Source: an uncultured Ruminococcus sp. (GTDB lineage Bacteria > Bacillota > Clostridia > Oscillospirales > Ruminococcaceae). Taken from it: 58,668 nt of DNA. The stretch spans positions 1 to 58,668 of the forward strand of contig CACYSH010000005.1 of the NCBI GenBank assembly GCA_902776945.1. The letters are read 5' to 3'. The position numbers and the translations under genes were made by a program. The notes under the pieces were generated by a model that saw only the letters and a list, made by a program, of their open reading frames with translations, was not told the origin of the DNA and made no database searches. Positions within the stretch are counted from its first letter, which is position 1. Every line of letters starts with the position of its first letter. Positions 11,946-58,415 of the stretch are shown in pieces.

Positions 11946-12242
11946 GGGGTCTGCACAAAATTTAAATATTTTAACGGGGCTTTTTTGTGTAAATATTTAC
12001 TGTAAATATCGCGTTATTTTGCGTTTTTGGAAAGCAAAGCCGACGGCGGGACAGGCAATTTCTTCTCAATAGGACAGGATTTGCGGCACAAGCGGCGGGA
12101 GCAAGTCCCCACTCTACAAATATTAATGTGTGATTTTTGTATAGCCGCTGTTGCTATTCCCGCAATATTTTCCGTCACGGATAACCCGATTGTATAAATC
12201 AAGAAAAATATATAATAATCAATTAAATATTTTATGAAAACG

Positions 12243-12271
12243 TTGACAAGCCCGTGTAATAGTGGTATAAT
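12243..12271 (+). promoter_or_regulatory. Promoter of the sensor-GGDEF gene
   Basis: TTGACA (12243-12248), 17 bases, TATAAT (12266-12271). It is divergent from the cellobiose phosphorylase promoter 300 bases away. Confidence 0.85.
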
Positions 12272-12308
12272 CAAAATGATAAGCACTGCCCGGGAGGTGA
12301 TCGGCAAG

Positions 12309-31264: not shown

Positions 31265-34200
31265 ATGGGCTTTGTTATAAAAGGAGAATTGCTTGACAGC
31301 TATGTAGCGGACGGCGGCGCAGTAAAGTCGCTGAACGTGCCTGCCGGGGTCAAGCGTATCGGTAAACGCGCTTTTTATGAATGTCCCGTAGAGGAAGTCT
31401 TGATACCCAAGGGCATCTACTACATCGGCGAAGGCGCTTTTTCCAATTCGAAAATAAAAAGGATCACGCTGCCCGATTCGGTCATTACACTCTGCGAAGG
31501 CGCTTTTTTGGGGTGCGACAGCCTTGAATTTGCCGAGATCCCGAACAGCGTGGAGGAAGTGCGCCGTGATACGTTCTGGAGCTGCTTCCGGATGAAAAAG
31601 TGCCGTCTGCATGAGGGCATTAATAAGGTAGAGCCTTCGGCTTTTATGTCATGCCGAAACGCTTTCGAGCTTTGCAATGGTGATCGTCATGTTACGCTGC
31701 CATATATTTCCGACTGGGCGATGTCCGACGCTTCAAAGTGCGTTGAATTTTTCGGGGCGCTCAGAACTGACAAGGCGGACGAGCTTTTTGCCGCTATCGG
31801 GCGCGAGGAACACAAGATGCCCTTAGCCGTTTATCTGTATGTCGTTCACGGCAGCAAGGCGGCGGAGGATTATCTGAGCGAGAATCTTCACGCAGCGGCG
31901 GCTCTTATGATAAACGACGATGATAACGGCGTTATGCTGCGCGGTCTGCTTAAAGCGGGCAAGCCCGATAATTGTATCGAGCTGCTTGAAGCTGCCGAAA
32001 ATCTCGGCGCGGAAAACTGCGCTGTGCTGCTCAGACCCCTCGCGGAGGAGGAAAAACAGGCTATCGCCGCCGAAGAGGAGCGGAAGAGACAGGAAGAGCT
32101 TAGGAAGCAGGAGGAGCTTAGAAGACAAGAGGAGCTAAAACGGCAGGAGGAGGAAGAACGCAGGAGACAGGAGGAGCTTAAACAGCAGGAGGAACTCAAA
32201 AAGCAGGAGGCTGTCAAAGCACTTGTCGAGACGAAGCTCCCCGAAGCCGCACCCCCGCCCGCAATGCCGACTGTCATTGTTCCCGACGCTGACAGCACCG
32301 AAGACCTTGACTTCGCGCCGACTATCGAGGTATTCCGACGGGTGACTATCGACTCGGCACTTATATATAAACTCAGAAAGGGGCTGACCCTTCACAGCAG
32401 ACCGAAAAACGGCTTTGAATGCGGCTTTGACCCCGAAAATTCAACGCTGGTGCTGACTGTCACCAATCCCGCGTACATCGACGAGCGGCTGCGGGCGCTT
32501 ATCTACCGCGCCTTTTTCGGCACGGTGGCTCCCGACAACGTTGCCAACGCCCGCCCGACAAAGCGCATTATCGAAATGGACACCGAGCGCGAGTTTAAGG
32601 CTCCGTCCGAGAACGTCCTGCTGATGCTGCTTACCGATACCGACATTATCGAGGCTTCGGATATAATCGACGAATGGAGCGTGCCTGTTGTCGATCAGAT
32701 GTCGGCGCGGCAGGCAGTTCCTGCGGGCGCTACTCACGAGCATTGCATCTACCGCAACGGCACTTTGGAGTTTTACGAGCTGTTCTCGTGGAACGTGCGC
32801 GTGGCGGTCTTTGAGGGCGGCACGCTTACCGCGCTCTGCGACGGTGCCGACTGCGAATGGGATAACAAGAGCCTGAGAATGTTCATCGACAGCCTGCCCG
32901 AGATATTCCGCGTGGATAAGATAAGCACTGCGAGACCCGATACTCTGCGCCTGCCTTACACCTGCCATACCATGCTTGCCGCGTCGCTTGAAATGCCGTC
33001 GCTCAAAAAGCTGATACTCTGCCGCAAGGTCATGAATATCGGCAGCAGCGTTATCGGCAGGGATTTTGAGGTCGTGGGCGTTGCGGGCGGCACCGCGCAG
33101 CGGCTGACCGACGAGGCGGAAGGCACGTTTACGGAGGGCTTCGGCGTGATGCGCGGCGCGGGAAGGGTTCGCCCCTCGCCCGACTGGACGATTTCTGTTC
33201 CCGACGAGAGCCGCTGGCGAGCCGAGAGCGACTATATGTCGCCAATACTCGAATTTGTCAATTGCTCGGGCGCTGCGGCGGGGAAAACTCTCGGCATTAC
33301 GTTCATCGGCGAAAAGGTCGAAAACGCCGCCGAAAAGGGGCTTGAAAAGCTGCTGGAAGGCAAAGGCGTGGTTTACGATCTTTACCGCGATGCCGAAAAG
33401 CGCCGCGAGATAGGGCTGGCGGTCGAGCTGTATGTGTTCCGCTTCGGCGATATTTCGGGCATTACGGCGGCTACTTATTATATTAACGGTTATGTAATAT
33501 CGGGTGATTCGGTGACTACCGTGCTGACCTCGTATGTCGGCAGCTCGGAGGAGGCGACCTCTGCGGTCGGCACCGTTCTCGATATGATGCGCACGATAGA
33601 GTTTGACGACGGCGTTAAGCCCGAGTTCGGCGATGTGGATATGAACAAGCTCGAAGAGCTGCTGAAGGAGCGCACGGAGCAGGCTGCCGCAGAGGACAAA
33701 TCGACAGCGGGAGCGCCTTCAAGGGTGGTCGTGTCGAACGACTGGGCGGTTACGGTTCCGCGTGGCTATGTGTGGTCTATCGACCCCGAAGTGATCAAGG
33801 GACACCGCTGCCTGCTGATACTTAACGGCGGCGAGGGCAGCGACATCAGCAGCTACTACGGCGCTGACGAGAGCTATTCGTGTATGTCGTCGCAGGGACC
33901 TATCTGCACGGGCGATCTGCGCGAATACTGCAACAAAATGCGGATAAGAAAGCTGGGACTTAATTCCTTTGGCGGCGGCAGTCCCGAAAGGCGCTTTGTG
34001 CTGAAGCATACCTCCGAAGTGGCTGTTTTTGTGCAGCTCCAGGAATACAAGGGCATTGGCGCAGGCGAAAACAGCGGCGCGAACGCGATATTTCGTGCGG
34101 AGATAATCACGCAGAACGGCGTTTACCCGATGCAGGTGGTTTTCGGTGCCGAAAAAGAACTTTTGGAGCATGAAAATAAGCTGGTCGAGCTGCTTATGAG

Positions 34201-35692
34201 CGTTACCGACAAGGACATTGCCTGCAACGATACATATATGCGGTGCTTTTTCAAGCTGAATGCCGCACTGCGCCGCGCCGAACCGACCAACGAGCGGACA
34301 GCCGCGCACTATCTTGAAACGCGCTCGGCGGAGGAAGGCTTTGACAGCTGGCTGCGCATGGGAATACAGCTGCGCGATTCGATAGAGTACGCGCTGCGAG
34401 CCATTGAGAATGTCAGCGTACCGCCCTTCGGCTACTCGGAGACAGCCTGGCAGTACGCGGGGCTTTTTGCCGTGAACAGCGAGGTCTATGACCCGTGCTT
34501 TGACCGCGAGCAGGAGATAAAGCATTGCTATATCCGCGAAGCCGAATACCTGACGGCGTTTCGCAGTTTTGTTTGGCTGATAGGCGAGCTTTGCGGCGTT
34601 GACGGCAAAAAGCCTGCCGAGCTTGCAACGGACGTTATCCTTGCAGCGGCGCAGCTTGTGGAAAGCAGGGGCTGTTTCTGCTATGACGAAACGCACTACC
34701 CGTCGATATGCAGTCTGCCCGATGTGAATACAGTCTATCTGCCCGACGGCGTGAGGAACGTTCCCGCGCTCGAACGTCTGGTCAGCAGCGACAAGTGGAC
34801 TGACGCGAGCCTTGACTCGCTGCGCGCCGAGCTTGCGGAAATAAAACCTTGCATTGACATTATTTACAATTATCTCAGTCAGGATCGCGACCCGTCGGGG
34901 GCGCTGCGCGGCATACATTCGTGCATACTTTATGTGTGGTGTTCGCTGACTATCGCGGCGAACCGTGCGTTCGCGCTGACCACCGACGCGCCCGTGAGCT
35001 GCGATTTCGGCGAGCGGAGCGACATGAGCTTTGCGAGCTTCGAGCCGCAGGTGTTCATCGAGGCAGAAATAGGTTCGCCTGTCGTTACCGATGAGCAGCC
35101 CGCCGACGAGGAGCCTGAATCCGAGCCGGAGGGCGAAGAGCAGCCGATCATGAAGCCGAGAATAAAGTCTCTGGTCTGCGGCGAAAGAATATCCGTTCAG
35201 CCGCTTGTGGAGGAGCCGTTCATCATCGAGCCGACATTCGAAGCGGACGAGAACGGTCTGGAGCTTGACGGCTACGCCTTCATGCTGACGGCAAAAGGCA
35301 AAGTCCGCAACGAGCATGACTTTGTTTTCTTCGGGCAGGACGCTTCGCCCGACGGCAGCGTGATGGTCGATAAGGAGAACAGCTGCCGTTTCACGCTGAA
35401 TCTTGATAAAGTGGACGAGGAGATCGTGAACATCGTGTTTGTCTACGCAATCTACGGCGACGATCCCGAACAAACGCTCGACAAGATAAAGGGCATTGAC
35501 ATCGGCTTTTACAGCGACGGCGAGCGCTTGATCCACTATGAGCCTGAGCCGTTCACCCGTGTAAAATCAATGGCAGCCTGCGAGGTATACCGCCACGACG
35601 GTATATGGAAGGTGCGGGCGGTCGGACGCGGCTACAAAGGTGCGCTGCGGCAGCTCTGCGCCGAGTTCGGCGTGGAGGTAGACGACGAATAA
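31265..35692 (+). CDS. Giant LRR / coiled-coil / TerD-domain protein
   Basis: A 1475-residue protein with no signal peptide or membrane helix. Residues 1-165 are BspA-like leucine-rich repeats (VKRIGKRAFYECPVEEVLIP, IKRITLPDSVITLCEGAF, EFAEIPNSVEEV). About 262-320 is a Glu/Arg/Gln coiled coil of (R/K)QEEL repeats. Residues 345-620 are unrecognised. Two related units then occur, beginning WTISVPDESRW (about 640) and WAVTVPRGYVW (about 825). Residues 1323-1475 are a TerD-type domain: GKVRNEHDFVFFGQ, ASPDGSVMV, LNLDKVDEEIVNIVFVYAI and EVYRHDGIWKVRAVGRGY. TerD domains bind calcium and occur in stress and conflict systems. No ter genes are nearby. It is monocistronic. Confidence 0.85.
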   Translation: MGFVIKGELLDSYVADGGAVKSLNVPAGVKRIGKRAFYECPVEEVLIPKGIYYIGEGAFSNSKIKRITLPDSVITLCEGAFLGCDSLEFAEIPNSVEEVRRDTFWSCFRMKKCRLHEGINKVEPSAFMSCRNAFELCNGDRHVTLPYISDWAMSDASKCVEFFGALRTDKADELFAAIGREEHKMPLAVYLYVVHGSKAAEDYLSENLHAAAALMINDDDNGVMLRGLLKAGKPDNCIELLEAAENLGAENCAVLLRPLAEEEKQAIAAEEERKRQEELRKQEELRRQEELKRQEEEERRRQEELKQQEELKKQEAVKALVETKLPEAAPPPAMPTVIVPDADSTEDLDFAPTIEVFRRVTIDSALIYKLRKGLTLHSRPKNGFECGFDPENSTLVLTVTNPAYIDERLRALIYRAFFGTVAPDNVANARPTKRIIEMDTEREFKAPSENVLLMLLTDTDIIEASDIIDEWSVPVVDQMSARQAVPAGATHEHCIYRNGTLEFYELFSWNVRVAVFEGGTLTALCDGADCEWDNKSLRMFIDSLPEIFRVDKISTARPDTLRLPYTCHTMLAASLEMPSLKKLILCRKVMNIGSSVIGRDFEVVGVAGGTAQRLTDEAEGTFTEGFGVMRGAGRVRPSPDWTISVPDESRWRAESDYMSPILEFVNCSGAAAGKTLGITFIGEKVENAAEKGLEKLLEGKGVVYDLYRDAEKRREIGLAVELYVFRFGDISGITAATYYINGYVISGDSVTTVLTSYVGSSEEATSAVGTVLDMMRTIEFDDGVKPEFGDVDMNKLEELLKERTEQAAAEDKSTAGAPSRVVVSNDWAVTVPRGYVWSIDPEVIKGHRCLLILNGGEGSDISSYYGADESYSCMSSQGPICTGDLREYCNKMRIRKLGLNSFGGGSPERRFVLKHTSEVAVFVQLQEYKGIGAGENSGANAIFRAEIITQNGVYPMQVVFGAEKELLEHENKLVELLMSVTDKDIACNDTYMRCFFKLNAALRRAEPTNERTAAHYLETRSAEEGFDSWLRMGIQLRDSIEYALRAIENVSVPPFGYSETAWQYAGLFAVNSEVYDPCFDREQEIKHCYIREAEYLTAFRSFVWLIGELCGVDGKKPAELATDVILAAAQLVESRGCFCYDETHYPSICSLPDVNTVYLPDGVRNVPALERLVSSDKWTDASLDSLRAELAEIKPCIDIIYNYLSQDRDPSGALRGIHSCILYVWCSLTIAANRAFALTTDAPVSCDFGERSDMSFASFEPQVFIEAEIGSPVVTDEQPADEEPESEPEGEEQPIMKPRIKSLVCGERISVQPLVEEPFIIEPTFEADENGLELDGYAFMLTAKGKVRNEHDFVFFGQDASPDGSVMVDKENSCRFTLNLDKVDEEIVNIVFVYAIYGDDPEQTLDKIKGIDIGFYSDGERLIHYEPEPFTRVKSMAACEVYRHDGIWKVRAVGRGYKGALRQLCAEFGVEVDDE

Positions 35693-43989: not shown

Positions 43990-44416
43990 AAATCCGAAAA
44001 CGATTGAAATGGGCATAATGCGCAAATTTTATGCCGAAATTTGGTTACTTTGCTTATATGAAAACGGTTTCGATGATGTTTCCGGGCTGATTCGGGCTGC
44101 TCTGCGAAAGTGTTTTCAATTGCAGTGTGTTGAAGCAGTGACAGTCAAGCGAAAATCTTGACGAGCAGAAGTGAAAGGTTACAAAAGAATATCATAATAA
44201 TAGTAATGTTTGTCATGGTGCATAAAAATTGTTGATGAAATTTGTGCAAGTATACATAATTTATTACTGAGCGGAAGAAATTTCGGGAAAAGACTTGCAT
44301 TTTGAACGAATATATTGTACAATATGTTCAACGGAAAACGCTGAATACCAAACATCGGCAGACAGCTCCGGAACACAAGCCGGGGTTCTTCCGAAAGCTG
44401 CGAAAACGTTTAGATT
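43990..44416 (+). promoter_or_regulatory. Cluster of LacI/CRE-like operator motifs
   Basis: Five AAAACG/AAAGTG-centred motifs: CGAAAACGATTGAAA (about 43998), TGAAAACGGTTTCGA (44058), GCGAAAGTGTTTTCAA (44104), GGAAAACGCTGA (44332) and GCGAAAACGTTTAGA (44400). They lie in a 770-base gene-free region before the LacI-type regulator. Such near-palindromes with a central CG are typical binding sites of LacI/CcpA-type proteins. The assignment is by eye. Confidence 0.45.
44295..44323 (+). promoter_or_regulatory. Promoter of the LacI-type regulator and importer operon
   Basis: TTGCAT (44295-44300), 17 bases, TACAAT (44318-44323). Two of the operator-like motifs (44332, 44400) lie just downstream, where a repressor would block transcription. 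Confidence 0.75.
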
Positions 44417-44448
44417 TAGCGGCAAATATTCGAAAGGGAGGGTGCCGA

Positions 44449-45459
44449 ATGGTATCGCTGAAGGACATTTCCCAGCGCTGCGGAGTATCAATCGCGACGG
44501 TGAGCAAGGCGCTCAACGACCATAAGGACGTGAGCCCCCAGACAAAGGAACGGCTGCTCAAGGTAGCCAAGGAAATGGGCTATTTTCCTAATTCGCAGGC
44601 AAGGGCTTTGAAGACGAACCGTACCTTTAATCTCGGAGTTATGTTCTCCGACGAGGCGGGCAGGGGACTTACACACGAGTTCTTTGCAAAGGTGCTGAAC
44701 AGCTTCAAGACCGAAGCGGAGCTTTCGGGCTACGACATTACCTTTATAAGTAAGAACTTGGGAAGCAGAAAAATGTCTACCTACGAGCATTGCAGATACC
44801 GCAATGTTGACGGGATAGGGATCATCTGCACGGATTTCTCCGACCCCGATGTGTACGAGCTTATAAACGGCGAATTGCCTGTGGTAACTATCGACCATGT
44901 GTTTGAATGCCGCTCGGCGGTGGTCTCGAACAACGAAACGGGCATGGAACAGCTCGTGGAGTACGTTACGAAGCTGGGTCACAAAAAGCTGGCGTTCATA
45001 CAGGGTAAGCGCTCCGCTGTAATGGAAAAGCGAATGAACGGCTTCTTCAAGGGCTGCCGCAACTGCGGCGTGGAGGTCAAGCCCGAATGGCTGCTGACAG
45101 GCGAATATCAAAGCCCGCAGCTGACCTACGAGCTTACCAAAAAGATGCTCGCGGAAAAGCCGCTGCCGACCTGCATATTCATGCCGGACGATTATTCGGC
45201 GATAGGCGGGTACAACGCTATCAAGGACGCGGGACTCAGGATCCCCGACGACATCTCGGTGGTGGGCTACGACGGCATCGCTTATGCGGATTTCCTTTCG
45301 CCGCGGCTGACCTCTTACAGGCAGGATACGGCAGGGATAGGCGCTGCGGCGGCGAAAAAGCTGATAGCGCAGATCGAGAATCCGGCAACTACATTGACCG
45401 AGATACTCACGATAGACGGCGCAGTTTCCGAGGGCGAATCGGTAACGAGGATCGTCTGA
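44449..45459 (+). CDS. LacI-family transcriptional regulator
   Basis: A 336-residue repressor. Headpiece VSLKDISQRCGVSIATVSKALNDH with the hinge SQARALKTNRT, then a two-lobed sugar-binding core (LGVMFSDEAG, IDGIGIICTDF-like stretch, KKLAFIQGKRSAVMEKRM, CIFMPDDYSAIGGYNAI, DISVVGYDGIAYADFLSP). The ATG at 44449 has GGGAGG upstream; the frame is open further upstream but covers the promoter leader. It is 83 bases ahead of the sugar-binding protein and likely controls that importer. Confidence 0.93.
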   Translation: MVSLKDISQRCGVSIATVSKALNDHKDVSPQTKERLLKVAKEMGYFPNSQARALKTNRTFNLGVMFSDEAGRGLTHEFFAKVLNSFKTEAELSGYDITFISKNLGSRKMSTYEHCRYRNVDGIGIICTDFSDPDVYELINGELPVVTIDHVFECRSAVVSNNETGMEQLVEYVTKLGHKKLAFIQGKRSAVMEKRMNGFFKGCRNCGVEVKPEWLLTGEYQSPQLTYELTKKMLAEKPLPTCIFMPDDYSAIGGYNAIKDAGLRIPDDISVVGYDGIAYADFLSPRLTSYRQDTAGIGAAAAKKLIAQIENPATTLTEILTIDGAVSEGESVTRIV

Positions 45460-45542: not shown

Positions 45543-47015
45543 ATGGCACAGATTAAAAAGATCTTAGCAGGCGCTCTTGCTCTTTGCATGGCTGGCTCTG
45601 TTCTGACCGCTTGCGGCGGCGACAATGGCGGCAGCTCTGCCGGCGGCAGCACCGAGGCTGGTAAGTCCGAGGGCGGCAGCGAAGGCGGCAGCGAGGGCGG
45701 CGAAGCCGCTAAGACTGAGGCTACTCCCGCAGACGCAGCTTCTCTTGTAAACACCGGTAAGGTATACAATGTATACTGCTGGAACACCGAGTTCAAGGAG
45801 AGATTTGAGAAGTACTATGAGGGCGCTAAGGATACCGCTCTCTGGGACGGCGTTACTGTAAACTGGGTAATCAATCCTAACGATGGTAACAACTATCAGA
45901 CCAAGCTCGACGAAGCTATCAAGAATCAGGGTTCGGCTGCTGACGATGAGAAGGTTGACCTCTTCCTCGTTGAGGCTGACTATGCTATGAAATATGTAAA
46001 CTCCGACGCTTGCCTCGATGTAATCGGCGAGATCGGCATCACCAAGGACGACCTGAAGGATCAGTACAAGTATACTCAGGACGTTATGACCGACTCCAAC
46101 GGCACTCTGAAGGGTCTGTCCTGGCAGGCTACTCCTGGTCTGTTCCTCTACAATGCTGAGTATGCAAAGCAGGTTCTCGGCACCGACGATCCCGATGAAG
46201 TACAGGCTATGGTTTCTGACTGGGATAAGTTCGCTGAGACCGCTCAGAAGATGAAGGACGCTGGCATCTTCATGGTATCCGGCTACGATGATACTTACAG
46301 ATGCTTCTCCAACAACGCTTCTGCTCCTTGGGTAACCGACGGCAAGATCACCATTGATCCCCAGATCAAGGCTTGGGTTGACCAGACCAAGGATTACTCT
46401 GACAAGGGCTTCAACAACGGCACTTCCCTTTGGGATCCCGCTTGGACTGCCGGTCAGAAGATCGACGGTAAGGTATTCGGCTACTTCTACTCCACATGGG
46501 GCATTCCTTTCTGCCTCCTCCCCAACACCCTCGACAAGTCTGAGGACGACGGCGGCAAGCTCGAAGAGGGCAACGGCGGTTACGGCAAGTGGAGAGCCTG
46601 CAAGGGTCCGCAGAGCTACTTCTGGGGCGGCACATGGATCGTTGGCTGCTACGGCTCCGACAACATCGCTATCACCAGAGATGTAATGCTCAAGCTGACC
46701 TGCAACGCTGACATCATGGCTCAGATCACCGAGAATGAGCAGGACTACACCAACAACAAGGCTGCTATCAAGAAGCTCATCGACGGCGGCTACACCAACC
46801 CGTTCCTCGGCGGACAGAATCACCTCGCTCTGCTCTCCGACGCTGCCGAGCAGATCGACCTGACCGGTAAGGTTTCCGCTTATGACCAGGGTTGTAACGA
46901 AGAGTTCCAGGGCGCTATGAAGGACTACTTCCAGGGCAAGGTTGACTATGATACCGCTCTCGGCAACTTCAAGACCAACATCACCACCAAGTACGGCGAT
47001 CTTACAATGGACTAA
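45543..47015 (+). CDS. Carbohydrate ABC importer substrate-binding lipoprotein
   Basis: A 490-residue extracellular lipoprotein: signal with lipobox VLTAC (Cys 24), a Gly/Ser/Glu linker, then a MalE-type type-1 binding fold starting YNVYCWNTEFKERFEKYY. Strong codon bias (GCT, AAC, CTC, AAG) indicates high expression. From about residue 62 to the end it is nearly the same as the ectodomain of the Ser/Thr kinase at 52921 (shared WTAGQKIDGKVFGYFYS, GGYTNPFLGGQNHLALL, YDQGCNEEFQ). AGGAGG precedes the ATG. The sugar is unknown; context (LacI, two MalF/G-type permeases) suggests an oligosaccharide. Confidence 0.93.
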   Translation: MAQIKKILAGALALCMAGSVLTACGGDNGGSSAGGSTEAGKSEGGSEGGSEGGEAAKTEATPADAASLVNTGKVYNVYCWNTEFKERFEKYYEGAKDTALWDGVTVNWVINPNDGNNYQTKLDEAIKNQGSAADDEKVDLFLVEADYAMKYVNSDACLDVIGEIGITKDDLKDQYKYTQDVMTDSNGTLKGLSWQATPGLFLYNAEYAKQVLGTDDPDEVQAMVSDWDKFAETAQKMKDAGIFMVSGYDDTYRCFSNNASAPWVTDGKITIDPQIKAWVDQTKDYSDKGFNNGTSLWDPAWTAGQKIDGKVFGYFYSTWGIPFCLLPNTLDKSEDDGGKLEEGNGGYGKWRACKGPQSYFWGGTWIVGCYGSDNIAITRDVMLKLTCNADIMAQITENEQDYTNNKAAIKKLIDGGYTNPFLGGQNHLALLSDAAEQIDLTGKVSAYDQGCNEEFQGAMKDYFQGKVDYDTALGNFKTNITTKYGDLTMD

Positions 47016-47154: not shown

Positions 47155-48093
47155 ATGAGAAAGACTATTAGCTACGCCAAATGGGGGTACATATTCCTTA
47201 TCCCTTTCGTGGTTATATACACGATTTTTGCGCTTATCCCTCTGCTTGAGACCTTCGGATTCAGCTTCCTTGACTATACTGTAAGTCAGGGCGCGGTTTC
47301 CAGCATCAGAGGCGGCGGCGGAGATACCATTGTAAATAATGGTTTCTGCGGACTTTCGAACTATATCAAGGTAATGAAGAGCGACGGTATCTTCAATATC
47401 TCTTTCAGAAGTACCGTTGTACTGTGGCTCGTGGGCTTTATTCCGCAGATCGTGGTTTCCCTTTTGCTTGCGTCGTGGTTTACCGACATCAGACTTAAGC
47501 TCAAGGCACAGGGCTTCTTCAAGACCGTTATGTATATGCCTAACGTAATCATGGCATCTGCACTTTCGGTACTGTTCTTCTCGCTCTTCACCAAGAGCGG
47601 CGCTATCGACGACCTGCTCGGCGGTCCCGACCTTCTGAAAAATGAATGGGGCGCACGCGGCGTTGTCGGCTTCATCAACTTCCTTATGTGGTACGGTAAT
47701 ACCACTATCCTGCTTATGGCAGCCATGATGGGTATTGATACTTCGCTTTACGAGGCGGCTCAGATCGACGGCGCTAATCCGTCGCAGGTATTCTGGCAGA
47801 TCACAATGCCCCTTATCAAGCCTATTCTTGCTTACGTTCTCGTAACCTCCATGATCGGTGGTTTACAGATGTACGATGTACCTTACCTCATAGGCGGTAC
47901 TCAGGGTAACCCGAACGGCGTTCTGAAAACGCTTGTATCTCAGATCCAGCTCGGTAAGAACTCTTCGGTAGGCGCTGTTTCCGCACTTTCTATCATCGTA
48001 TTTATCGTATCGGCAATACTCGGCTTCATTACCCTTAAGATAATGGACGACCAGAGCATCAAGACCAGATACGGTAAGAAAAAGAAGAAGTAA
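47155..48093 (+). CDS. Sugar ABC importer permease, MalF type
   Basis: A 312-residue inner-membrane subunit with six predicted helices. The EAA loop is EAAQIDGANPSQVFWQITMPLIKP, the contact site for the ATPase. An N-terminal helix (YIFLIPFVVIYTIFALIPLLE) and an extracellular insert with GGGGDTIVNNGFCGLSNY precede the core. AGGTG lies before the ATG. It follows the attenuator after the binding-protein gene. Confidence 0.93.
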   Translation: MRKTISYAKWGYIFLIPFVVIYTIFALIPLLETFGFSFLDYTVSQGAVSSIRGGGGDTIVNNGFCGLSNYIKVMKSDGIFNISFRSTVVLWLVGFIPQIVVSLLLASWFTDIRLKLKAQGFFKTVMYMPNVIMASALSVLFFSLFTKSGAIDDLLGGPDLLKNEWGARGVVGFINFLMWYGNTTILLMAAMMGIDTSLYEAAQIDGANPSQVFWQITMPLIKPILAYVLVTSMIGGLQMYDVPYLIGGTQGNPNGVLKTLVSQIQLGKNSSVGAVSALSIIVFIVSAILGFITLKIMDDQSIKTRYGKKKKK

Positions 48094-48114: not shown

Positions 48115-49005
48115 ATGGCAAGAATTGAAGGAATCGCCGGTGAAAACGAAGACCAGATGAAACTTAAGATCAGACAGGGTATTGCTTATGTTGTTCTTGT
48201 AATACTTATGTTTGTATCTCTTCTGCCCTTCTATCTGCTTCTGATAAACGCTACCAGAGGTAAGGTTCAGCCGGGTATCAAGTTTATTCCCGAAAGCCTG
48301 TTCTTCAAGAATATCGGCAAGATATTCAGCGAGGATTACAGAGCTAACTACGGTAATTTCTTAAAATCTTTCTGCAACAGTATTTTCGTATCTGCTGTCA
48401 GCACTGTTCTCTGCGTATACTTCTCTGCGCTGACCGCCTACGCTATCCACGTTTACGATTTCAGACTGAAAAAGTCCGTACATACTTTCATTCTCCTTGT
48501 AATGATGGTTCCTACGCAGGCTTCGGCTATCGGTCTTTACAGAATGCTTGTTTCGATGAATCTGACAAACAGCTTTATCCCGCTGACTATCCCCGCGATA
48601 GCTGCTCCCGCTACCTACTTCTTCATGATCCAGTACATGGCATCGGCGCTTCCGCTTGAAATAGTCGAGGCGGCAAGAATGGACGGCTGCGGAGAATACA
48701 AGACATTTAACATCATAGTTCTTCCGATACTCAAGCCCGCGCTTGCGGTTCAGGCGATCTTCGTATTCGTATCTAACTGGAACAACCTGTTCCTTCCCCA
48801 GATGCTGCTTGACGACGCTAACAAGAAGACTATCCCGGTAGTTCTCCAGCTTATCAAGGCAAATATCGACAGTAACCCGATGACGGCTGACGCAGGACTT
48901 ATGAATATGTTCATGGTTCTCGCGATCCTCCCGGTAGTTGTGATCTACCTGCTGCTTTCGAAGAATATAGTTGGCGGCGTATCTCTCGGTGCCGTTAAGG
49001 GCTGA
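48115..49005 (+). CDS. Sugar ABC importer permease, MalG type
   Basis: A 296-residue partner permease with six helices and the EAA motif EAARMDGCGEYKTFNIIVLPILKP. It ends in the MalG-like VVIYLLLSKNIVGGVSLGAVKG. GGAGGG precedes the ATG, 21 bases after the MalF-type gene. No ATPase gene is in the cluster, so a shared MsmX/MsmK-type ATPase encoded elsewhere must energise it. Confidence 0.93.
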   Translation: MARIEGIAGENEDQMKLKIRQGIAYVVLVILMFVSLLPFYLLLINATRGKVQPGIKFIPESLFFKNIGKIFSEDYRANYGNFLKSFCNSIFVSAVSTVLCVYFSALTAYAIHVYDFRLKKSVHTFILLVMMVPTQASAIGLYRMLVSMNLTNSFIPLTIPAIAAPATYFFMIQYMASALPLEIVEAARMDGCGEYKTFNIIVLPILKPALAVQAIFVFVSNWNNLFLPQMLLDDANKKTIPVVLQLIKANIDSNPMTADAGLMNMFMVLAILPVVVIYLLLSKNIVGGVSLGAVKG

Positions 49006-49580: not shown

Positions 49581-49616
49581 CGATATAACAAGCTGTCAGA
49601 AAAAAAGGAGAGTATG

Positions 49617-50363
49617 ATGAATATAGCGATTATCGACGATACCGCGCTGGACAGACGGCTTCTGACGAAAACTCTTCGGGATTATCTTTCCTCGAACGGG
49701 CTTGAAGCCGATATTACCGAATTTTCAAGCGGCGAGGATTTTATTAAGAGCTATCGTCCGCTGATGTTTACTATCGTTTTTATGGATATTTTTATGCACG
49801 GAATCAACGGCATCGAGGCTGCCGCGAAAATGCGCGAGAGCGATTCCGATACTTTGCTGGTGTTTCTTACCAGCAGCAGCGAACACCGCCCCGAGGCTTT
49901 CTCTACTCACGCTTACGACTATTTGCAGAAGCCCGTCAATAAATCGCGCCTTTACAGCCTTATGGACGATATTATGAGACTCACGCCCGAGACCGACAAG
50001 GAGCTTACCTTTATCTGCGAAAAGACCGAGCGGCGCATTCCGTTCTCGGAGCTTGTCGCCGTCTGCTCAAGCGGACATTATCTGGAGATCACCGACTGCG
50101 CGGGCTTTTCCTACCGCACAAGGCTGAATTTTTCCGCTGCGGAAAAACAGCTTTCGGGCGATTCGCGCTTCCTGCTCGTGCTTAGGGGCGTTATGGTAAA
50201 TATGGATCATATACTCAGCTTTACCGACGACGGCTGCGAGCTTGCGGGCGGGCTGAAAGTCCCGATAAACGTGCGCAACAGCCGCGGTCTTGAACAGATC
50301 TGGAAAAACTACATTTTCGCTAAGGTAAGGCGCGAGACCATGATGAGGAGCGGCAGAAAATGA
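49617..50363 (+). CDS. LytTR-family response regulator
   Basis: A 248-residue AgrA/LytR-type regulator. Receiver domain with IIDDTALDR (acidic pocket), phospho-Asp in IVFMDIFMHGINGIEAA and Lys in DYLQKPV. The C-terminal LytTR DNA-binding domain has ICEKTERRIPFSELVAVCSSGHYLEI and RGVMVNMDHI. The second of two adjacent ATGs was chosen for better spacing from AAAGGAG. Its stop overlaps the kinase start (ATGA). Confidence 0.93.
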   Translation: MNIAIIDDTALDRRLLTKTLRDYLSSNGLEADITEFSSGEDFIKSYRPLMFTIVFMDIFMHGINGIEAAAKMRESDSDTLLVFLTSSSEHRPEAFSTHAYDYLQKPVNKSRLYSLMDDIMRLTPETDKELTFICEKTERRIPFSELVAVCSSGHYLEITDCAGFSYRTRLNFSAAEKQLSGDSRFLLVLRGVMVNMDHILSFTDDGCELAGGLKVPINVRNSRGLEQIWKNYIFAKVRRETMMRSGRK

Positions 50364-51712
50364 TGGAGCTTTCCGAGTCGCTGATAATGACGCTGTTTTT
50401 CGCGTCGATAATTCCTGCGGCTTTCATGTGCTATTACCCGATGAAGGATCAGCTCGCATATCCGACTGAAACGATCGTTCTGCGCGGAGCGGCGGTGCTT
50501 GTCGTGCTGCTGCCCGCCGCAGGTTTTGCGAGCGTTAAGTTTTCAAATTTTTCGGACTTAATATATTTGTCGCTGCTTGCGCTGCTTTACCTGTTCTATC
50601 ACCGCAGCCTGACCGTGGATGTAAGCCGTTCGCTTGCCGTTTTCATGTGGGTGACGGCGCTGATGTCGATACTTTTAGGCTTTGTCTACTGCGTTGATGC
50701 GCGGCTGAATCCCGCGCTCGGCGCAGACAGCAGCAGTCTTGAAGGCGCTGTAACGCAGCTGATACTCAGCTTTGCGGCGGCGATAATATCATTTTATCCC
50801 GCGAGAAAATACGGCGCGGCGCTTATCAATTTCTATGGCGTTAGTAAAGTATGGTACATAACCATACCTGTCACGGGGATATTTTTCACCATGAGCTACC
50901 TGCTCGCGCCGAAGAAGTACGAAACGCTTTATGTGAACAGGGTCTTTGCTGCCTATATCTGCACGACTTCGCTTATGCTGGCGGCGCAGCTGCTGCTTAC
51001 TGTCATCTTCTACCATATTGTAATGAGCATGATAGATATGATGAAGACTGCCGAGCGCAACCGCATTCTGGAAATGCAGGAAAGCCGTTACATCAAGCAG
51101 CAGAAGTACATCGAGGATACCGCGAAGCTCCGCCACGATTTCAAGCATACGATAAGGACGCTCTGCGAACTGGCGGGCGAGGGCGAGTACGAGGAGCTTA
51201 ACCGCTATCTTTCGGACTACCTCGCTGAAATGCCGCAGAACGATACCGTTTATTACTGTAAAAACAATTCAATAAACGCCGTTTTGAATTACTATCAGGA
51301 GCAGGCGGTCAGCTCGGACATTGACGTAACTTTCAGGATAGAGCTGCCCGATACGCTGCCGTTCAGTAATATTGATATGTGCGGGATAATCGGCAATATC
51401 CTTGACAACGCCGTTACCGCCTGCCGCGACACCGAACCCGGCGACCGCAGGATACAGTTCACTATGATGACGCAGAACAACGCGCAGCTTGTGATAGTGT
51501 CGCTAAACAGTTTCAGCGGGCGGCTGAAAAAGCAGGGCGAGCGCTATCTTTCGACGAACCGCAAGGGCAGCGGGATAGGGCTGACATCTATTTCCGAAAC
51601 GGCGCTGCGCTGCGGCGGCGAGGCGAGATTTTCGCACGATATAGAGAGAAAGGAATTTTACATCGACATTATGCTGCCGCTGAAACAGGCGGCGGGCAGC
51701 AGGGAGGACTAA
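50360..51712 (+). CDS. GHKL-family sensor histidine kinase
   Basis: A 450-residue AgrC-like kinase. Six hydrophobic helices fill residues 1-225. An H-box follows (AKLRHDFKHTIRTLCELAGEGEY, His about 258) and a GHKL ATPase domain with N-box IIGNILDNAVTACRDTE and G-boxes RKGSGIGLTSISETALRCGG. Such kinases usually detect peptides or small molecules at the membrane. No signalling-peptide gene was found close by. It pairs with the LytTR regulator. Confidence 0.92.
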   Translation: MMELSESLIMTLFFASIIPAAFMCYYPMKDQLAYPTETIVLRGAAVLVVLLPAAGFASVKFSNFSDLIYLSLLALLYLFYHRSLTVDVSRSLAVFMWVTALMSILLGFVYCVDARLNPALGADSSSLEGAVTQLILSFAAAIISFYPARKYGAALINFYGVSKVWYITIPVTGIFFTMSYLLAPKKYETLYVNRVFAAYICTTSLMLAAQLLLTVIFYHIVMSMIDMMKTAERNRILEMQESRYIKQQKYIEDTAKLRHDFKHTIRTLCELAGEGEYEELNRYLSDYLAEMPQNDTVYYCKNNSINAVLNYYQEQAVSSDIDVTFRIELPDTLPFSNIDMCGIIGNILDNAVTACRDTEPGDRRIQFTMMTQNNAQLVIVSLNSFSGRLKKQGERYLSTNRKGSGIGLTSISETALRCGGEARFSHDIERKEFYIDIMLPLKQAAGSRED

Positions 51713-52766: not shown

Positions 52767-52795
52767 TTGCAATATTTAAAAATTTGTGATATAAT
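52767..52795 (+). promoter_or_regulatory. Promoter of the Ser/Thr kinase operon
   Basis: TTGCAA (52767-52772), 17 bases, TATAAT (52790-52795); transcription would begin near 52802, just before the long inverted repeat. Confidence 0.75.
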
Positions 52796-52818: not shown

Positions 52819-52881
52819 ATACTATTTAATCATCAATCCATAGACAATCTTGGCGGCTATGCCTTGATGATTAAATAGTAT
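52819..52881 (+). promoter_or_regulatory. Long perfect inverted repeat in the kinase leader
   Basis: ATACTATTTAATCATCAA (52819-52836) and its exact complement TTGATGATTAAATAGTAT (52864-52881) flank a 27-base loop that itself contains CATAG/CTATG. The stem is AT-rich with no T-run, so it is not a standard terminator. It lies between the promoter and the kinase ribosome site and could be an operator or an RNA switch. Confidence 0.8.
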
Positions 52882-52920: not shown

Positions 52921-55749
52921 ATGAAATATTGTTGCCGATGTATGAATGCTATGGAAGATAACGAGGAAATATGCTCGCGCTGCGGAATGGAGCAGCGCGT
53001 ATATGTTGCGCCGCCGCATATTTTGTCCGTCGGGACGGTCATTAACGGCAGATACCTTATCGGCGGGATAATCGGCGAGGGCGGGTTCGGTATTACCTAT
53101 ATCGGGCTTGATACCCTGCTTAAATACCGCGTGGCGGTCAAGGAATTTTACCCGAACGGAATGGTTACGCGCAACAATACCGTTTCCACTGATGTACATA
53201 CTATCAAATCCGAGAGCAGTCAGGAATTTTTTTACAAGGCGCGTGAAAATTTCCTGCGCGAGGCTCAGACGCTTGCGCGGTTCAACGAGGAGCCGTCGAT
53301 CGTTTCGGTAAAGGACTTTTTTGACGCGAATAACACGGTCTATATCGTCATGGAGTATCTTGAAGGCATAACGCTGAAACAGCATTTGTATCAGCTGGGC
53401 GGCAAAATGTACTGGCGCGAAGCGGTGTCTCTGCTGATGCCCGTGCTTTATGCGCTTAGGAAAATTCATTCCGAAGGGCTGATACACCGCGACATCAGCC
53501 CTGACAATATTATGATCGTAAAGGGCGGGATCAAGCTGTTGGACTTCGGCGCGGCAAGGGAATACACCGACGAGAAAAGCCTTTCAGTAATGCTAAAGCA
53601 CGGTTACGCGCCTTTTGAGCAGTACACCCGCCGCGGCGATCAGGGCGCATGGACTGATATATACGCATTTTGCGCCACGCTGTACAAATGTATTACCGGA
53701 GAAACGCCGCTCCAGGCGACTGACAGAATAGTTGACGACACCCTTAAAATGCCGATGGAGCTTGGCATAGAAGCGAACAGAGCGCTGGACGACGCTCTGC
53801 GGCGCGGGCTTGCAGTCATGGTCAAGGATCGCATACAGAATGTTGACGAGCTTATAGTGGGTTTGCAGGCGGCGCTTAATGACAGAGGGTTCGCCATGCC
53901 GCCGCAGAGCTATAATGACGGTGAAGCCACGGTCATGATGGATTCTTACATAAGCGCCGAAAATGAGCTTTCTTCAAAGACAGTTGCAGCGGACGTATCT
54001 CCGTTCGGGCAGATAAACCATAACGTTACCGAACGGTATACTCAACCCGCTCCCGCGCCTGTAAAGCCGCAGGCTCCGATACAGACAAACACGCCCGCTC
54101 CTCAGTCCGTAAAGCCGCAGGCTCCTGTACAGATGGCTGCGCCCGCTCCGATTCCCGTAAAGAAAAAGAATACGGCGGTCATCGCGGCGGCAGCAGGGAT
54201 ATTGCTTGTCGGCGGAGGAATATTTGCGGTAAGTGCGCTTAATACCAAAAAGCCGGAAGAACCACAGCCCGCGGCGGTAACGACCGTGACAACTACCGTA
54301 CAGACCACTACCACCGCAAAGCGGAATATCGTGACAACGGCAGCAACCACAACGAAAAAAGAAACGACTACAACAACCGCCGCCGCCACGACTACGACTA
54401 CGGCTGCCACCACTGCAAAGAAGAAAAAGACCACAAAAGAGACCACTGCCGAAGTGAAGGAAAATAATACTCCGCAGCTCGTGAATATCGGCAAGAAATA
54501 CAACATCTATTGCTGGAATACCGAGTTTAAGGAGAGGTTTGAAAGATATTATGAGCCGTCGCGGGATAACTCGCTTTGGAACGGCGTTACCGTGAACTGG
54601 ATAATCAATCCCAACGACGGCAACAACTATCAGAACAAGCTCGATGCCGCTATCATGAAACAGCTTGATGTTGCTGACGATGAAAAGATAGATCTCTTCA
54701 TGGTTGAGGCAGACTACGCCCTGAAATATGTAAATTCCGATGTTCCTCTTGATGTGACAGGCGAGATAGGTCTGACAAATGACGACCTTTCACAGCAGTA
54801 TCAGTACACCAAGGACGTTATGACCGATTCAAACGGTATACTTAAAGGCGTTTCATGGCAGGCTTGTCCCGGACTGTTCCTTTATAACGCTGATTATGCA
54901 AAACAGGTTCTCGGCACCGATGACCCCGATAAGGTTCAGGCTATGATCTCGGACTGGAACAAATTTGAAGAAGTCGCCCACAAGATGAAGGACGCGGGAA
55001 TATTCATGGTATCGGGTTACGACGATACTTACAGATGTTTTTCCAACAACGTTTCCGCGCCGTGGGTAACTAATGGCAGAATAACCATTGACCCGCAGAT
55101 AAAAGCATGGGTCGATCAGACCAAGAGATATTCTGAAATGGGCTATAATAACGGTACCTACCTTTGGGATAGCGAATGGACTGCCGGTCAGAAGATCGAC
55201 GGCAAGGTATTCGGTTACTTCTATTCCTCGTGGGGCATTCCTTTCTGCCTTCTTCCCAACACGCTTGATGTGGGGGAGGACGACGGCGGCAGGCTGGAGG
55301 TCGGCAACGGCGGCTACGGTAAATGGAGAGCCTGTCTGGGTCCCCAGTCGTATTATTGGGGCGGCACATGGATAGTCGGCTGCTACGGCTCGGATAACAT
55401 TGCCATAACAAGAGATATAATGCTGAAACTGACCTGCGACGCTGATATAATGGCTCGGATAACTCAGAACGAGCAGGACTACACCAATAACAAGGCGGCA
55501 ATCAAGAAGCTCATCGACGGCGGCTACACAAATCCGTTCCTCGGCGGACAGAATCACCTCGCATTGCTTGCCGACTCTGCCGAGCGTATAGATCAGCGCA
55601 GTAAGATCTCTGTTTATGATCAGGGCTGCAACGAGGAATTTCAGTTTGCTATGAGTTATTATTTCACCGGCGAGGTGGATTACAATACCGCTCTCGGCTT
55701 TTTCAAAGAGAATATCCTCAATAAGTACAGTGATCTTACCATGAACTGA
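52921..55749 (+). CDS. Receptor Ser/Thr protein kinase with sugar-binding-protein ectodomain
   Basis: A 942-residue membrane kinase. Residues 4-21: CxxC...CxxC zinc ribbon. Residues 45-320: Hanks-type kinase with GEGGFG (52-57), Lys 74 in VAVKEF, HRDISPDN (189-196), DFGAARE (208) and GYAPFEQY as activation segment. One transmembrane helix about 418-438, then a Thr/Lys-rich stalk. Residues about 520-942 form an extracellular solute-binding domain nearly the same as the importer lipoprotein at 45543. A kinase fused to a binding-protein duplicate is unusual; it probably senses the importer's ligand. It heads a two-gene operon with the next kinase. Confidence 0.92.
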   Translation: MKYCCRCMNAMEDNEEICSRCGMEQRVYVAPPHILSVGTVINGRYLIGGIIGEGGFGITYIGLDTLLKYRVAVKEFYPNGMVTRNNTVSTDVHTIKSESSQEFFYKARENFLREAQTLARFNEEPSIVSVKDFFDANNTVYIVMEYLEGITLKQHLYQLGGKMYWREAVSLLMPVLYALRKIHSEGLIHRDISPDNIMIVKGGIKLLDFGAAREYTDEKSLSVMLKHGYAPFEQYTRRGDQGAWTDIYAFCATLYKCITGETPLQATDRIVDDTLKMPMELGIEANRALDDALRRGLAVMVKDRIQNVDELIVGLQAALNDRGFAMPPQSYNDGEATVMMDSYISAENELSSKTVAADVSPFGQINHNVTERYTQPAPAPVKPQAPIQTNTPAPQSVKPQAPVQMAAPAPIPVKKKNTAVIAAAAGILLVGGGIFAVSALNTKKPEEPQPAAVTTVTTTVQTTTTAKRNIVTTAATTTKKETTTTTAAATTTTTAATTAKKKKTTKETTAEVKENNTPQLVNIGKKYNIYCWNTEFKERFERYYEPSRDNSLWNGVTVNWIINPNDGNNYQNKLDAAIMKQLDVADDEKIDLFMVEADYALKYVNSDVPLDVTGEIGLTNDDLSQQYQYTKDVMTDSNGILKGVSWQACPGLFLYNADYAKQVLGTDDPDKVQAMISDWNKFEEVAHKMKDAGIFMVSGYDDTYRCFSNNVSAPWVTNGRITIDPQIKAWVDQTKRYSEMGYNNGTYLWDSEWTAGQKIDGKVFGYFYSSWGIPFCLLPNTLDVGEDDGGRLEVGNGGYGKWRACLGPQSYYWGGTWIVGCYGSDNIAITRDIMLKLTCDADIMARITQNEQDYTNNKAAIKKLIDGGYTNPFLGGQNHLALLADSAERIDQRSKISVYDQGCNEEFQFAMSYYFTGEVDYNTALGFFKENILNKYSDLTMN

Positions 55750-55802: not shown

Positions 55803-58415
55803 ATGAACTATTGTTATCATTGTCTGAACAAGCTCGACGACGGCATAGACATCTGCCCGCGCTGCGGGTGCGATCAGAGCGTTTATGTCACGCCGCCGCA
55901 TATCTTAGCGCCGGGAACGCTCGTAAATAACCGCTATCTTGTCGGAGGGATACTGGGCGAGGGCGGGTTCGGCATTACCTATATCGGGCTTGATACCCTG
56001 CTTGATTACCATGTCGCGGTAAAGGAATTTTTCCCGAACGGCATGGTAACGCGCAACAGCACCGTTTCTACTGATGTAGTGACGATCAGCACGGGTACAA
56101 ATCACGATTTCTTTTTTAAATCCCGCGAGAACTTTCTCCGCGAGGCACGCACACTGGCAAAGTATACCAAGGAAGAAGGCGTGGTCTCCGTCCGCGACTT
56201 TTTCGAAGCGAACAACACCGTCTATATCGTTATGGAGTACATTGACGGCGTAACGCTCAAAAGGTATCTGAATCAGTCGGGCGGAAAGCTGCCCTGGCGC
56301 GACGCGGTAAGGCTTCTTATGCCCGTGCTGAAAATACTTGCGAAAATTCATTCCGACGGGCTTATCCACCGCGACATCAGCCCCGACAACATAATGCTCG
56401 CCGATGGCGGCGTGAAGCTCCTTGATTTCGGCGCGGCGCGTGACTACACCGACGAAAAGAGCCTTTCGGTAATGCTTAAACACGGCTACGCGCCAATGGA
56501 GCAGTACCGCCGTCACGGCGAGCAAGGCACATGGACGGACGTTTACGCCTTCTGCGCCACGCTGTACAAATGCGTGACGGGCAATGCCCCTCCCGACGCG
56601 CCCGACCGTATTTTCAACGATACGCTCCGGATGCCTTCGGAGCTGGGAATGGAAGTCAGCCCGACGTTTGAGGAAGTCCTGCGGCGCGGGCTGGCGGTAA
56701 GGAACGACGAGCGCATACAGACCGCCGGAGAGCTTATGTCGGGCTTGCAGGCGGCGCTTGCGGATAACGGCACGGCGAACGCCTACAACGCGCAGAATAA
56801 CGCGGACCGGGCGTATCGCGGCGCTCCTGCGGGAGCCGCCGATCTAAGGCAGGCACAGGCGCGGCAGCCTTCACCCGTTCAGATGAACCGCGGCGCACCC
56901 CGTAAGGCTGAACAGACCGAAACCGTTCAGATGAACCGCAGCGTACCCCGTCAGGCGGAACGCCCCGCGCCCGTTCAGGCGGCAGCACCCGCGTATGCGA
57001 ATCAGCCCGTACCCGCTGCGGCGGTAAAAGGAAGAAAGCCGCTGCACCCTGTATTGATAGGGGTAATCGCAGTCTTTAGCTTGTTCTGGCTGATCGTCAT
57101 AATCATGGTGATAATGACAAAAGCCGAAGAGAAGAAAGAGGCGGCGGCAGCCGGCACGGCGGTCATTGAAGCGGAAGAACAGTCCGCAGAAGTCACTGTG
57201 GCTGATGAGCCTGCCGAACCTGCCGCAGTCACCACTGCGGAAAAAGTAATGTCGGGAGTAAGCAGCGTGACCGGGATAAGCTGGAGGATAGAGAACGACG
57301 ATACGCTTATCATAAGCGGTTCGGGCGATATGGGAGAAACGGAACTGTTCGGCGATGTTGTCCCCGCGAAAAGTAAGATAAGAAAGGTGATCATCGAAAA
57401 CGGCGTTACGAGCATTTACGACAAGGCTTTTTATAATTTCAGCGGGCTTGAAAGCGTGACTATCCCCGAAACCGTAACAAGCATCGGCGAAAGTGCATTT
57501 GATTCGTGTATAAGCCTGAAAAGCGCGGATATTCCCGACAGCGTTACCAGTATCGGCGGGTGGGCGTTTGCGTCGTGCAAGAGCCTTGAAAGTGCGACTA
57601 TCTCAAAAAATGTCACGATAATTGAACGCAATACCTTTGCCGAATGCAGTAGCCTTAAAAAGGTGAAGATACCGAGCGGCGTTACAAAAGTCGGGGTAAG
57701 GGCTTTTGCGTGGTGTGAGGCGCTGACAAGCGTGACTATCCCGAACAGCGTTTCGGAATTTGGCAACAAAGCCTTTGAAAATTGTACAAGCCTTACGATA
57801 AAATGCAACAAAGGCTCGGCAGCGGAAAAATACGCCGATGAAAACGGGATAACTTACGACAACGGCGAAAAGACCGTGACAAAATCGGCTGACACGACCG
57901 CTGCGGTTAATGAGGCTTTGGCTGACGGATTTGAAATATCATTGAAGAACGGAGAAAATGTTCTGAAATATTACAGAGGCGAAGGGGGAGATGTAGTCAT
58001 TCCCGGCGGCGTTACTTGCATTGGCGATTCTGTGTTCTATGCCAATACCTCTCTGACGAGCGTTGTTATTCCCAACGGTGTTACGAGAATAGGGGATTAT
58101 GCGTTCGAATTGTGCAAATCTCTGACAAGCATTACTATCCCTGACGGCGTGACTTACATTGGCATAGGGGCGTTCAAAGGCTGCAAATCGCTGAAAAGCG
58201 TTAATATTCCGAACAGCGTGACGAGTATTGAAAGTCAGACCTTTGAAGACTGCGCTAATCTTACAAGCGTTACCATTCCGAAAAGTGTTAAAACCATTGG
58301 CGACGGTGACGACCCGTTTGCACATTGCCCAAATATCACAATAAAATGCAGTAAGGATTCGGCGGCGGAGCGATATGCCATTTTCTATGACAAAAAATAT
58401 GAGCTGATAGATTAA
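55803..58415 (+). CDS. Receptor Ser/Thr protein kinase with BspA-like LRR ectodomain
   Basis: An 870-residue paralogue of the preceding kinase: the same zinc ribbon (Cys 4, 7, 18, 21), GEGGFG, Lys 74, HRDISPDN (189) and DFGAARD (208). A Gln/Pro/Ala linker with repeated VQMNR leads to one transmembrane helix (about 417-438). The outside part holds two blocks of leucine-rich repeats (about 520-690 and 715-855) of the LRR_5 type, such as LTSVTIPNSVSEFGNKAFENC. GGAGA precedes the ATG 53 bases after the first kinase. The same intracellular module with another sensor suggests a paired set. The ligand is unknown. Confidence 0.92.
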   Translation: MNYCYHCLNKLDDGIDICPRCGCDQSVYVTPPHILAPGTLVNNRYLVGGILGEGGFGITYIGLDTLLDYHVAVKEFFPNGMVTRNSTVSTDVVTISTGTNHDFFFKSRENFLREARTLAKYTKEEGVVSVRDFFEANNTVYIVMEYIDGVTLKRYLNQSGGKLPWRDAVRLLMPVLKILAKIHSDGLIHRDISPDNIMLADGGVKLLDFGAARDYTDEKSLSVMLKHGYAPMEQYRRHGEQGTWTDVYAFCATLYKCVTGNAPPDAPDRIFNDTLRMPSELGMEVSPTFEEVLRRGLAVRNDERIQTAGELMSGLQAALADNGTANAYNAQNNADRAYRGAPAGAADLRQAQARQPSPVQMNRGAPRKAEQTETVQMNRSVPRQAERPAPVQAAAPAYANQPVPAAAVKGRKPLHPVLIGVIAVFSLFWLIVIIMVIMTKAEEKKEAAAAGTAVIEAEEQSAEVTVADEPAEPAAVTTAEKVMSGVSSVTGISWRIENDDTLIISGSGDMGETELFGDVVPAKSKIRKVIIENGVTSIYDKAFYNFSGLESVTIPETVTSIGESAFDSCISLKSADIPDSVTSIGGWAFASCKSLESATISKNVTIIERNTFAECSSLKKVKIPSGVTKVGVRAFAWCEALTSVTIPNSVSEFGNKAFENCTSLTIKCNKGSAAEKYADENGITYDNGEKTVTKSADTTAAVNEALADGFEISLKNGENVLKYYRGEGGDVVIPGGVTCIGDSVFYANTSLTSVVIPNGVTRIGDYAFELCKSLTSITIPDGVTYIGIGAFKGCKSLKSVNIPNSVTSIESQTFEDCANLTSVTIPKSVKTIGDGDDPFAHCPNITIKCSKDSAAERYAIFYDKKYELID

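Follow-up and report, generated by a model that had tools for sequence, protein, structure and literature searches.

The locus and its genes

The DNA analysed here, referred to as the window, comprises 58,668 nucleotides of the genome of an uncultured Ruminococcus sp. (G000). In its second half, genes for a sugar importer, for regulators and for two tandem protein kinases follow each other, and part of this gene block was found to be kept in a sister species (G004). The first of the two kinase genes, termed kin1, joins a protein kinase to a substrate-binding protein (SBP) ectodomain. The features considered are:

44302..45459, plus strand: LacI-family regulator, upstream of the importer genes (Pfam)
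45543..47015, plus strand: importer binding protein, a lipoprotein (LTAC at residues 21-24) and paralogue of the kin1 ectodomain (BLASTP, lipobox)
47155..48093, plus strand: importer permease A (BPD_transp_1; Pfam)
48115..49005, plus strand: importer permease B (BPD_transp_1; Pfam)
49614..50363, plus strand: response regulator between importer and kinases, kept in G004 (Pfam, synteny)
50360..51712, plus strand: GHKL-type sensor kinase, kept in G004 (Pfam, synteny)
52767..52795, plus strand: promoter-like site TTGCAA-17-TATAAT upstream of kin1, also upstream of the G004 kinase (consensus match only)
52921..55749, plus strand: kin1, whole fusion gene, 942 amino acids (open reading frame, pairwise match, Pfam)
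52930..52983, plus strand: zinc-ribbon-type N-terminal cysteines CCRC...CSRC, kin1 residues 4-21 (motif scan)
53062..53727, plus strand: kin1 protein kinase domain, residues 48-269 (Pfam PF00069, E 2e-31, and motifs)
54169..54237, plus strand: predicted single transmembrane helix, about kin1 residues 417-439 (hydropathy)
54241..54477, plus strand: Thr/Lys/Ala-rich linker, kin1 residues 441-519, the end of which is the parting point from the G004 kinase (sequence)
54478..55746, plus strand: SBP ectodomain, kin1 residues 520-942 (423 residues), duplicate of the importer binding protein (alignment, dN/dS, model)
55803..58415, plus strand: kin2, a second kinase of this family in tandem, having a BspA-type LRR ectodomain and starting 53 bases downstream of the kin1 stop (Pfam LRR_5 E 1.1e-74, Pkinase 7.6e-29)

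Pfam shows only a receiver domain in the response regulator and a GHKL domain in the sensor kinase. Among the neighbouring genes scanned, no ATPase gene for the importer was noted; importers of such type often share one ATPase. Elsewhere in the window, a Peripla_BP_3 domain is joined to a GGDEF domain (12234-14216), hence another binding-protein fold with a signalling output, and a protein of 1475 amino acids (31265-35692) matches a BspA-type LRR over residues 19-132 and TerD over residues 1328-1468.

Architecture of kin1

The kin1 frame begins with ATG and is open throughout. The Pkinase model of Pfam scores 109.8 bits as compared to a cut-off of 31.7, and a motif scan revealed GEGGFG, VAVK, HRD, DFG and an APE-like motif, whereby the glycine loop, the VAIK-type lysine, the HRD aspartate and the DFG aspartate locate to positions 52, 71, 189 and 208, respectively. 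By its motifs kin1 is a Hanks-type Ser/Thr kinase, for which phosphotransfer to Ser/Thr is predicted. Kinase domain and hydrophobic helix are separated by a proline-rich stretch. With the PASTA-type kinases (PknB, PrkC, StkP) kin1 has the Hanks kinase, the one helix and an extracellular domain in common, but it differs from these in that Pfam gave no PASTA match and the NCBIfam PASTA-kinase model reached 164 bits, below its cut-off of 450. The 5' leader of kin1 holds a 59-base inverted-repeat element (52821-52879), a second copy of which, with one difference, is located near the end of a PfkB-type gene (G000:C93:3412-3470); the exact pattern of this element is absent in all 12 other genus genomes and also from the leader of the G004 kinase.

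The ectodomain as a copy of the importer's binding protein

Residues 511-942 of kin1 align with residues 59-490 of the binding protein without any gap, 343 of the 432 positions being identical (79%) and 380 similar (745 bits, BLASTP). The original prediction had claimed an end-to-end alignment with about 80% identity, which holds, as does the identical run quoted in its support, AGQKIDGKVFGYFYS, which is found in both proteins; the start at residue 520 does not, the match beginning at residue 511. From residue 520 on, identity amounts to 81% over 423 residues, 81 of which differ. The further claim of many altered third codon positions is confirmed by 178 of 423 codons differing there as compared to 52 and 47 at positions one and two, and that of an old duplication with a conserved protein agrees with a dN of 0.119 and a dS of 1.405 (NG86; this dS is near saturation). 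With a dN/dS of about 0.085, the ectodomain is, as judged from its codons, kept under purifying selection. That the SBP was duplicated only recently, or that its second copy was produced by the assembly, was considered and is ruled out by the dS of about 1.4 together with the residue differences (81/423). Beyond ectodomain and importer protein, no further copies of the SBP sequence were found in the own genome.

By the same method (NG86), the binding proteins of G000 and G004 differ with a dN of 0.042 and a dS of 0.257, and the catalytic parts of kin1 and the G004 kinase with a dN of 0.128 and a dS of 0.973. Highly expressed genes tend to change slowly at synonymous sites, and since the importer protein is slow at these sites, ages are not directly readable from dS. 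A protein tree, built from 25 of 60 aligned rows, places the ectodomain outside the pair formed by the G000 and G004 binding proteins (support 92/84), which would place the duplication before the G004 split. Constraining the ectodomain with the G000 binding protein costs 4.2 log units (AU p 0.19), and constraining ten neighbourhood SBPs (nine genus genomes and G290) together without the ectodomain costs 14.4 (AU p 0.15). Later and earlier dates are both compatible with these tests, and the date of the duplication is thus not settled.

Within the family alignment, 50 columns show no variation among the other 59 members, and the ectodomain retains all of these; changes affect 1 of 65 columns at 97% and 1 of 102 at 90% conservation, which is within the range of 19 other rows (0-1 invariant columns, 0-6 at the 90% level); the probability that 81 random changes in 423 positions spare 50 columns is 1.1e-5. 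A comparison confined to the 19 nearest rows shows changes in the ectodomain at 3 of 154 columns that are otherwise invariant; the importer proteins of G000 and G004 have none, the remaining rows 0-5 and one row 16. As the closest importer proteins changed none of these columns, the specificity of the ectodomain may have shifted. Furthermore, its branch in the protein tree is long (0.23 vs 0.012 for the importer copy), indicating faster evolution, and substitutions are somewhat enriched at residues 390-415 (10 of 81, p 0.014, for a region chosen post hoc). These three observations would suit an ectodomain that no longer recognises the sugar of the importer but responds to a different ligand or to a partner protein. 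However, the unchanged invariant columns and the single change at the 90% level, being nothing unusual among the other rows, argue against such a re-targeting, which is considered improbable.

Integrity of the joint

The genome is available as a draft assembly in 280 contigs, with a completeness of 93% and a contamination of 1.9%, and the fusion is known from this single draft. Assembly might have attached the kinase linker by mistake to an independent second SBP gene, from the same strain or from a related one, an idea to which the fragmentation of the draft, the low-complexity Thr-rich linker at the joint, the other ectodomain lead-in found there in the sister species and the occurrence of the fusion in only one of the genomes searched all lend themselves. 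Such a misjoin would, however, need shared sequence at the joint, and is disfavoured because the highest-scoring match of a 320-base stretch over the joint to any other place in the own genome spans only 32 bases (88%; 40 of 49 candidates scored), no long repeat thus being seen there. Also, the frame is open up to a stop shortly before kin2, and the upstream side of the joint resides in the gene block syntenic with G004, up to the end of the G004 contig. Finally, the codon usage of the ectodomain departs from that of the importer protein, toward that of the kinases: GC3 amounts to 0.59 in the ectodomain as compared to 0.70 in the importer protein and 0.63 and 0.60 in the two kinases, and the codon scores are -0.244 (ectodomain), +0.471 (importer protein), -0.06 and -0.09 (permeases) and -0.65 and -0.72 (kinases), whereby the reference sets are small and the importer reference is the G004 orthologue, which raises the importer protein's score by descent. 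A chimeric origin of the fusion is hence regarded as very improbable.

Spread of the SBP family and of kinase ectodomains

The SBP family occurs in all 13 genus genomes, the own included, in 163 of 396 family genomes and in 47 of 391 class genomes, and the kinase fusion in 1 of the 13. No fused copy was found in the 12 other genus genomes, the G004 contig ending within the kinase, and no second kinase fused to this SBP family was present among the matches listed for the 396 family and 391 class genomes. Likewise, 72,556 plasmid records hold no place covering 80% of the fusion. The search for other proteins combining kinase and SBP, as suggested by the original prediction, yielded none with this SBP family among the matches listed. 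Six other frames of the class sample (645-964 amino acids), scanned with Pfam, showed no kinase. These six comprise two fusions with SLH and Big_2 domains (L139, L140), one tandem SBP pair, two with an N-terminal part without Pfam assignment, and one in which zinc ribbon, helix, linker and SBP follow each other (L144:2408-4342), i.e., the kin1 layout minus the kinase.

The fusions of related SBP domains to SLH and Big_2 and the SBP with zinc ribbon and helix in L144, which does without a kinase, would fit the idea that the kin1 ectodomain captures sugar or adheres to substrate at the cell surface, holding oligosaccharides close to the importer, with a kinase that is constitutive or responds to something else; the kin2 ectodomain would fit as well, BspA-type LRR proteins often being adhesive. 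Such a tethered capture function is nevertheless held to be unlikely, as the kinase motifs of kin1 are intact and its catalytic part is conserved with that of G004 (80%, dN 0.13, dS 0.97).

In the own genome, the kinase query gave 11 matches, for 8 of which the C-terminal part was read: kin1 with this SBP, two with LRR, one with MORN, two with a shorter SBP-like domain, one with PASTA, Big_2 and LRR and one PASTA-like (L096, by eye). The statement that Hanks-type receptors usually carry PASTA or other sensors is thereby to be adjusted for this organism, in which non-PASTA ectodomains (LRR, MORN and a second, divergent SBP-like type) are usual. This shorter SBP-like ectodomain was found in 5 of 295 order genomes, the own included, and also in G004. 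For the L095 domain, the best of five models (pLDDT 83.9) was SBP-like in Foldseek, whereby its fold is less sure since the four others reached only 44-70; profile comparison found no kinship with the SBP family described here. L095:4578-6527 and L079:4496-6445 encode kinase-like proteins with this SBP-like ectodomain, probably pseudokinases because HGN replaces HRD, and in L079 a PASTA-like kinase follows (by eye).

Together with L094, L078 and L123-L126, these pseudokinase-like proteins resemble kin1 in having a zinc-ribbon-like start, a kinase, a helix and an SBP-like ectodomain, a layout that was assigned by Pfam for L094, L078 and L095 and read from sequence for the others of the group. 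They differ by their shorter ectodomain, by the profile kinship not found and in that this ectodomain is not, as far as seen, a copy of an importer protein. An actinobacterial 'Bifunctional Ser/Thr kinase/ABC transporter substrate-binding protein' likewise combines kinase and SBP fold in one protein, with another SBP type. Since other kinases of the same order bear SBP-like ectodomains, the combination of a Hanks kinase and an SBP ectodomain has precedent; what is new in kin1 is that the ectodomain is a direct copy from the adjacent importer, and that there is evidence of the sensor having been swapped. Within the partial literature coverage and the search wording used, no publication describing a fusion between a carbohydrate SBP and a Hanks kinase was found.

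The sister species and the apparent exchange of the sensor

G000 and G004 share the gene order LacI regulator, binding protein, both permeases, response regulator, sensor kinase, thioesterase and then kinase. The catalytic part of the G004 kinase is 80% identical to that of kin1, the leader with TTGCAA-17-TATAAT is common to both genes, and the two kinases pair in the kinase tree with a support of 100/98 (11 rows, including L123 and leaving out L096, L095 and two PASTA-type rows). A closest pair of kin1 and kin2 was ruled out (AU p 0.005). The G004 contig ends inside the kinase, at residue 504, so that the G004 ectodomain is known by its lead-in alone. Among the open reading frames of the compared loci, including the window, the last 30 residues present gave, apart from the self-match, matches only to the segments immediately preceding the LRR repeats of kin2 (E 0.006) and of a PASTA/LRR kinase of the own genome (E 0.001), and none to an SBP. 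As the G004 ectodomain starts like a BspA-type LRR, one of the two lineages appears to have exchanged the sensor while keeping the kinase constant. At the level of sequence, catalytic part and promoter-like site are constant, sensors differ between the two species, and the parting point is the end of the Thr-rich linker. With evenly balanced odds, it is suggested that a resident Hanks kinase acquired a copy of the importer's binding protein, which replaced or alternates with an LRR sensor, that external cellodextrin would thereby be read by Ser/Thr phosphorylation, and that this kinase family would have its sensors swapped at the Thr-rich linker with promoter and catalytic domain unchanged.

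Fold of the ectodomain and the likely sugar

The AF2 model of the ectodomain (pLDDT 95.2) possesses the two-lobe oligosaccharide-binding SBP fold of ABC importers; binding of an oligosaccharide is predicted. Foldseek matched the model with 5ixp (E 5.7e-18) and 8bfy (E 2.2e-16); most top matches are oligosaccharide-binding proteins, with CebE in complex with cellotriose in second place, and the nearest folds are 5ixp (a family-1 SBP), this CebE complex, a beta-1,6-galactobiose binder and a sophoro-oligosaccharide binder. No Pfam family was found on the ectodomain, and no SBP model was matched by the 60 alignment members at E 0.01, while two more distant relatives (L141, L143) do match a Pfam SBP model. 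The profile of the SBP family found CebE as best match in the PDB (E 8.5e-6); a single-sequence PDB search with the importer protein found no SBP, and only the profile succeeded.

In the CebE report, cluster B is the name of the SBP cluster of such oligosaccharide-binding proteins, and W331, G333 and S334 are among the cellotriose contacts (PMC10714786). With a numbering shift of 28, derived in this analysis, these contacts align with W294, G296 and T297, which are identical in both copies. A difference in ligand contacts between the copies, named by the original prediction as an objection to be considered, was encountered neither at these three mapped contacts nor at the conserved columns. 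By eye, the key residue D173 of CebE seems to have its counterpart in Q128, which both copies share, hence the pocket is not that of CebE. CebE-like proteins have the fold and three aligned contacts in common with the ectodomain, but they are importer lipoproteins of about 15% identity.

The gene surroundings of the family were used to narrow down the sugar. GH94 genes are part of the gene chain in 4 of 26 named loci (L018, L019, L020, L022), and a Pfam scan covered 10 of 105 neighbours, namely long genes from 7 loci. In L019, L020 and L022 the SBP and two permease-sized genes are directly followed by the GH94 gene on the same strand. The L020 and L022 proteins score 1070 and 1101 bits to cellobiose phosphorylase vs 398 and 406 to chitobiose phosphorylases; the GH94 identity in L019 and L018 rests on the Pfam scan. 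Other scanned neighbours are a GH9 cellulase in L012 and a GH16 protein in L016, and in L006 a weaker GH94 and a GH3 are both located upstream. The own genome encodes a cellobiose phosphorylase on another contig (400 amino acids of it tested), which is common to 11 of 13 genus genomes at 90% or more, and 27 dockerin matches. The GH94 gene of the window (9435-11849, minus strand) is nearest to the N,N'-diacetylchitobiose phosphorylase 8bou (1165 bits) and 90% identical to a G007 gene about 2 kb after the importer, which is also nearest to chitobiose phosphorylase. These two genes, the arrangement in L006 and the small number of loci with GH94 genes weigh against a firm assignment. The imported sugar is most likely, if tentatively, cellobiose or a cellodextrin, other beta-linked oligosaccharides being possible.

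Comparison with the cua system and proposed function

The cua system of Ruminiclostridium cellulolyticum comprises CuaD-CuaS-CuaR, the importer CuaABC and CbpA, and a split into uptake by CuaA and signalling by CuaD was proposed from binding and mutant data; the importer is described as having no adjoining ATPase gene, with the ATPase being shared (PMC5663094). In both loci a single importer is accompanied by two SBPs, of which one would serve uptake and the other is a proposed signalling protein; cellobiose or cellodextrins are the sugar, for kin1 the likely one, and no adjoining ATPase gene was noted. In contrast, CuaD is a free lipoprotein with a histidine kinase and an AraC-type regulator as proposed partners and is 14% identical to CuaA, while the kin1 ectodomain is 79% identical to the importer's protein and fused to a Hanks kinase. 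The second SBP beside the importer SBP is thus present as the kin1 ectodomain; a separate SBP with histidine kinase and AraC-type regulator was not found at the locus, the SBP being fused to the Hanks kinase. By analogy, the best reading is that kin1 would work like the proposed signalling SBP of cua, with a Hanks kinase replacing the histidine kinase.

On the basis of sequence, model and this analogy, kin1 is predicted, with a probability of about 0.6, to be a membrane receptor Ser/Thr kinase for the importer's oligosaccharide, most likely cellobiose or short cellodextrins. Outside the cell, the bound sugar would bring the two ectodomain lobes together, their closure would alter dimerisation or activity of the kinase across the single helix, and the kinase would then phosphorylate cytoplasmic targets, whereby control of fibre-degrading enzymes or of the importer is plausible. 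The lipoprotein copy would import and the kin1 copy report, a division of labour like that proposed for CuaA and CuaD.

To our knowledge, the ligand is unknown for most bacterial receptor kinases. For kin1 the sequence predicts one, and the copy in the adjoining importer provides a ready control. If true, this would offer a testable route from an outside sugar to Ser/Thr phosphorylation in fibre-degrading bacteria. The locus also illustrates how a transport protein, once copied onto a kinase, can give rise to a new receptor.
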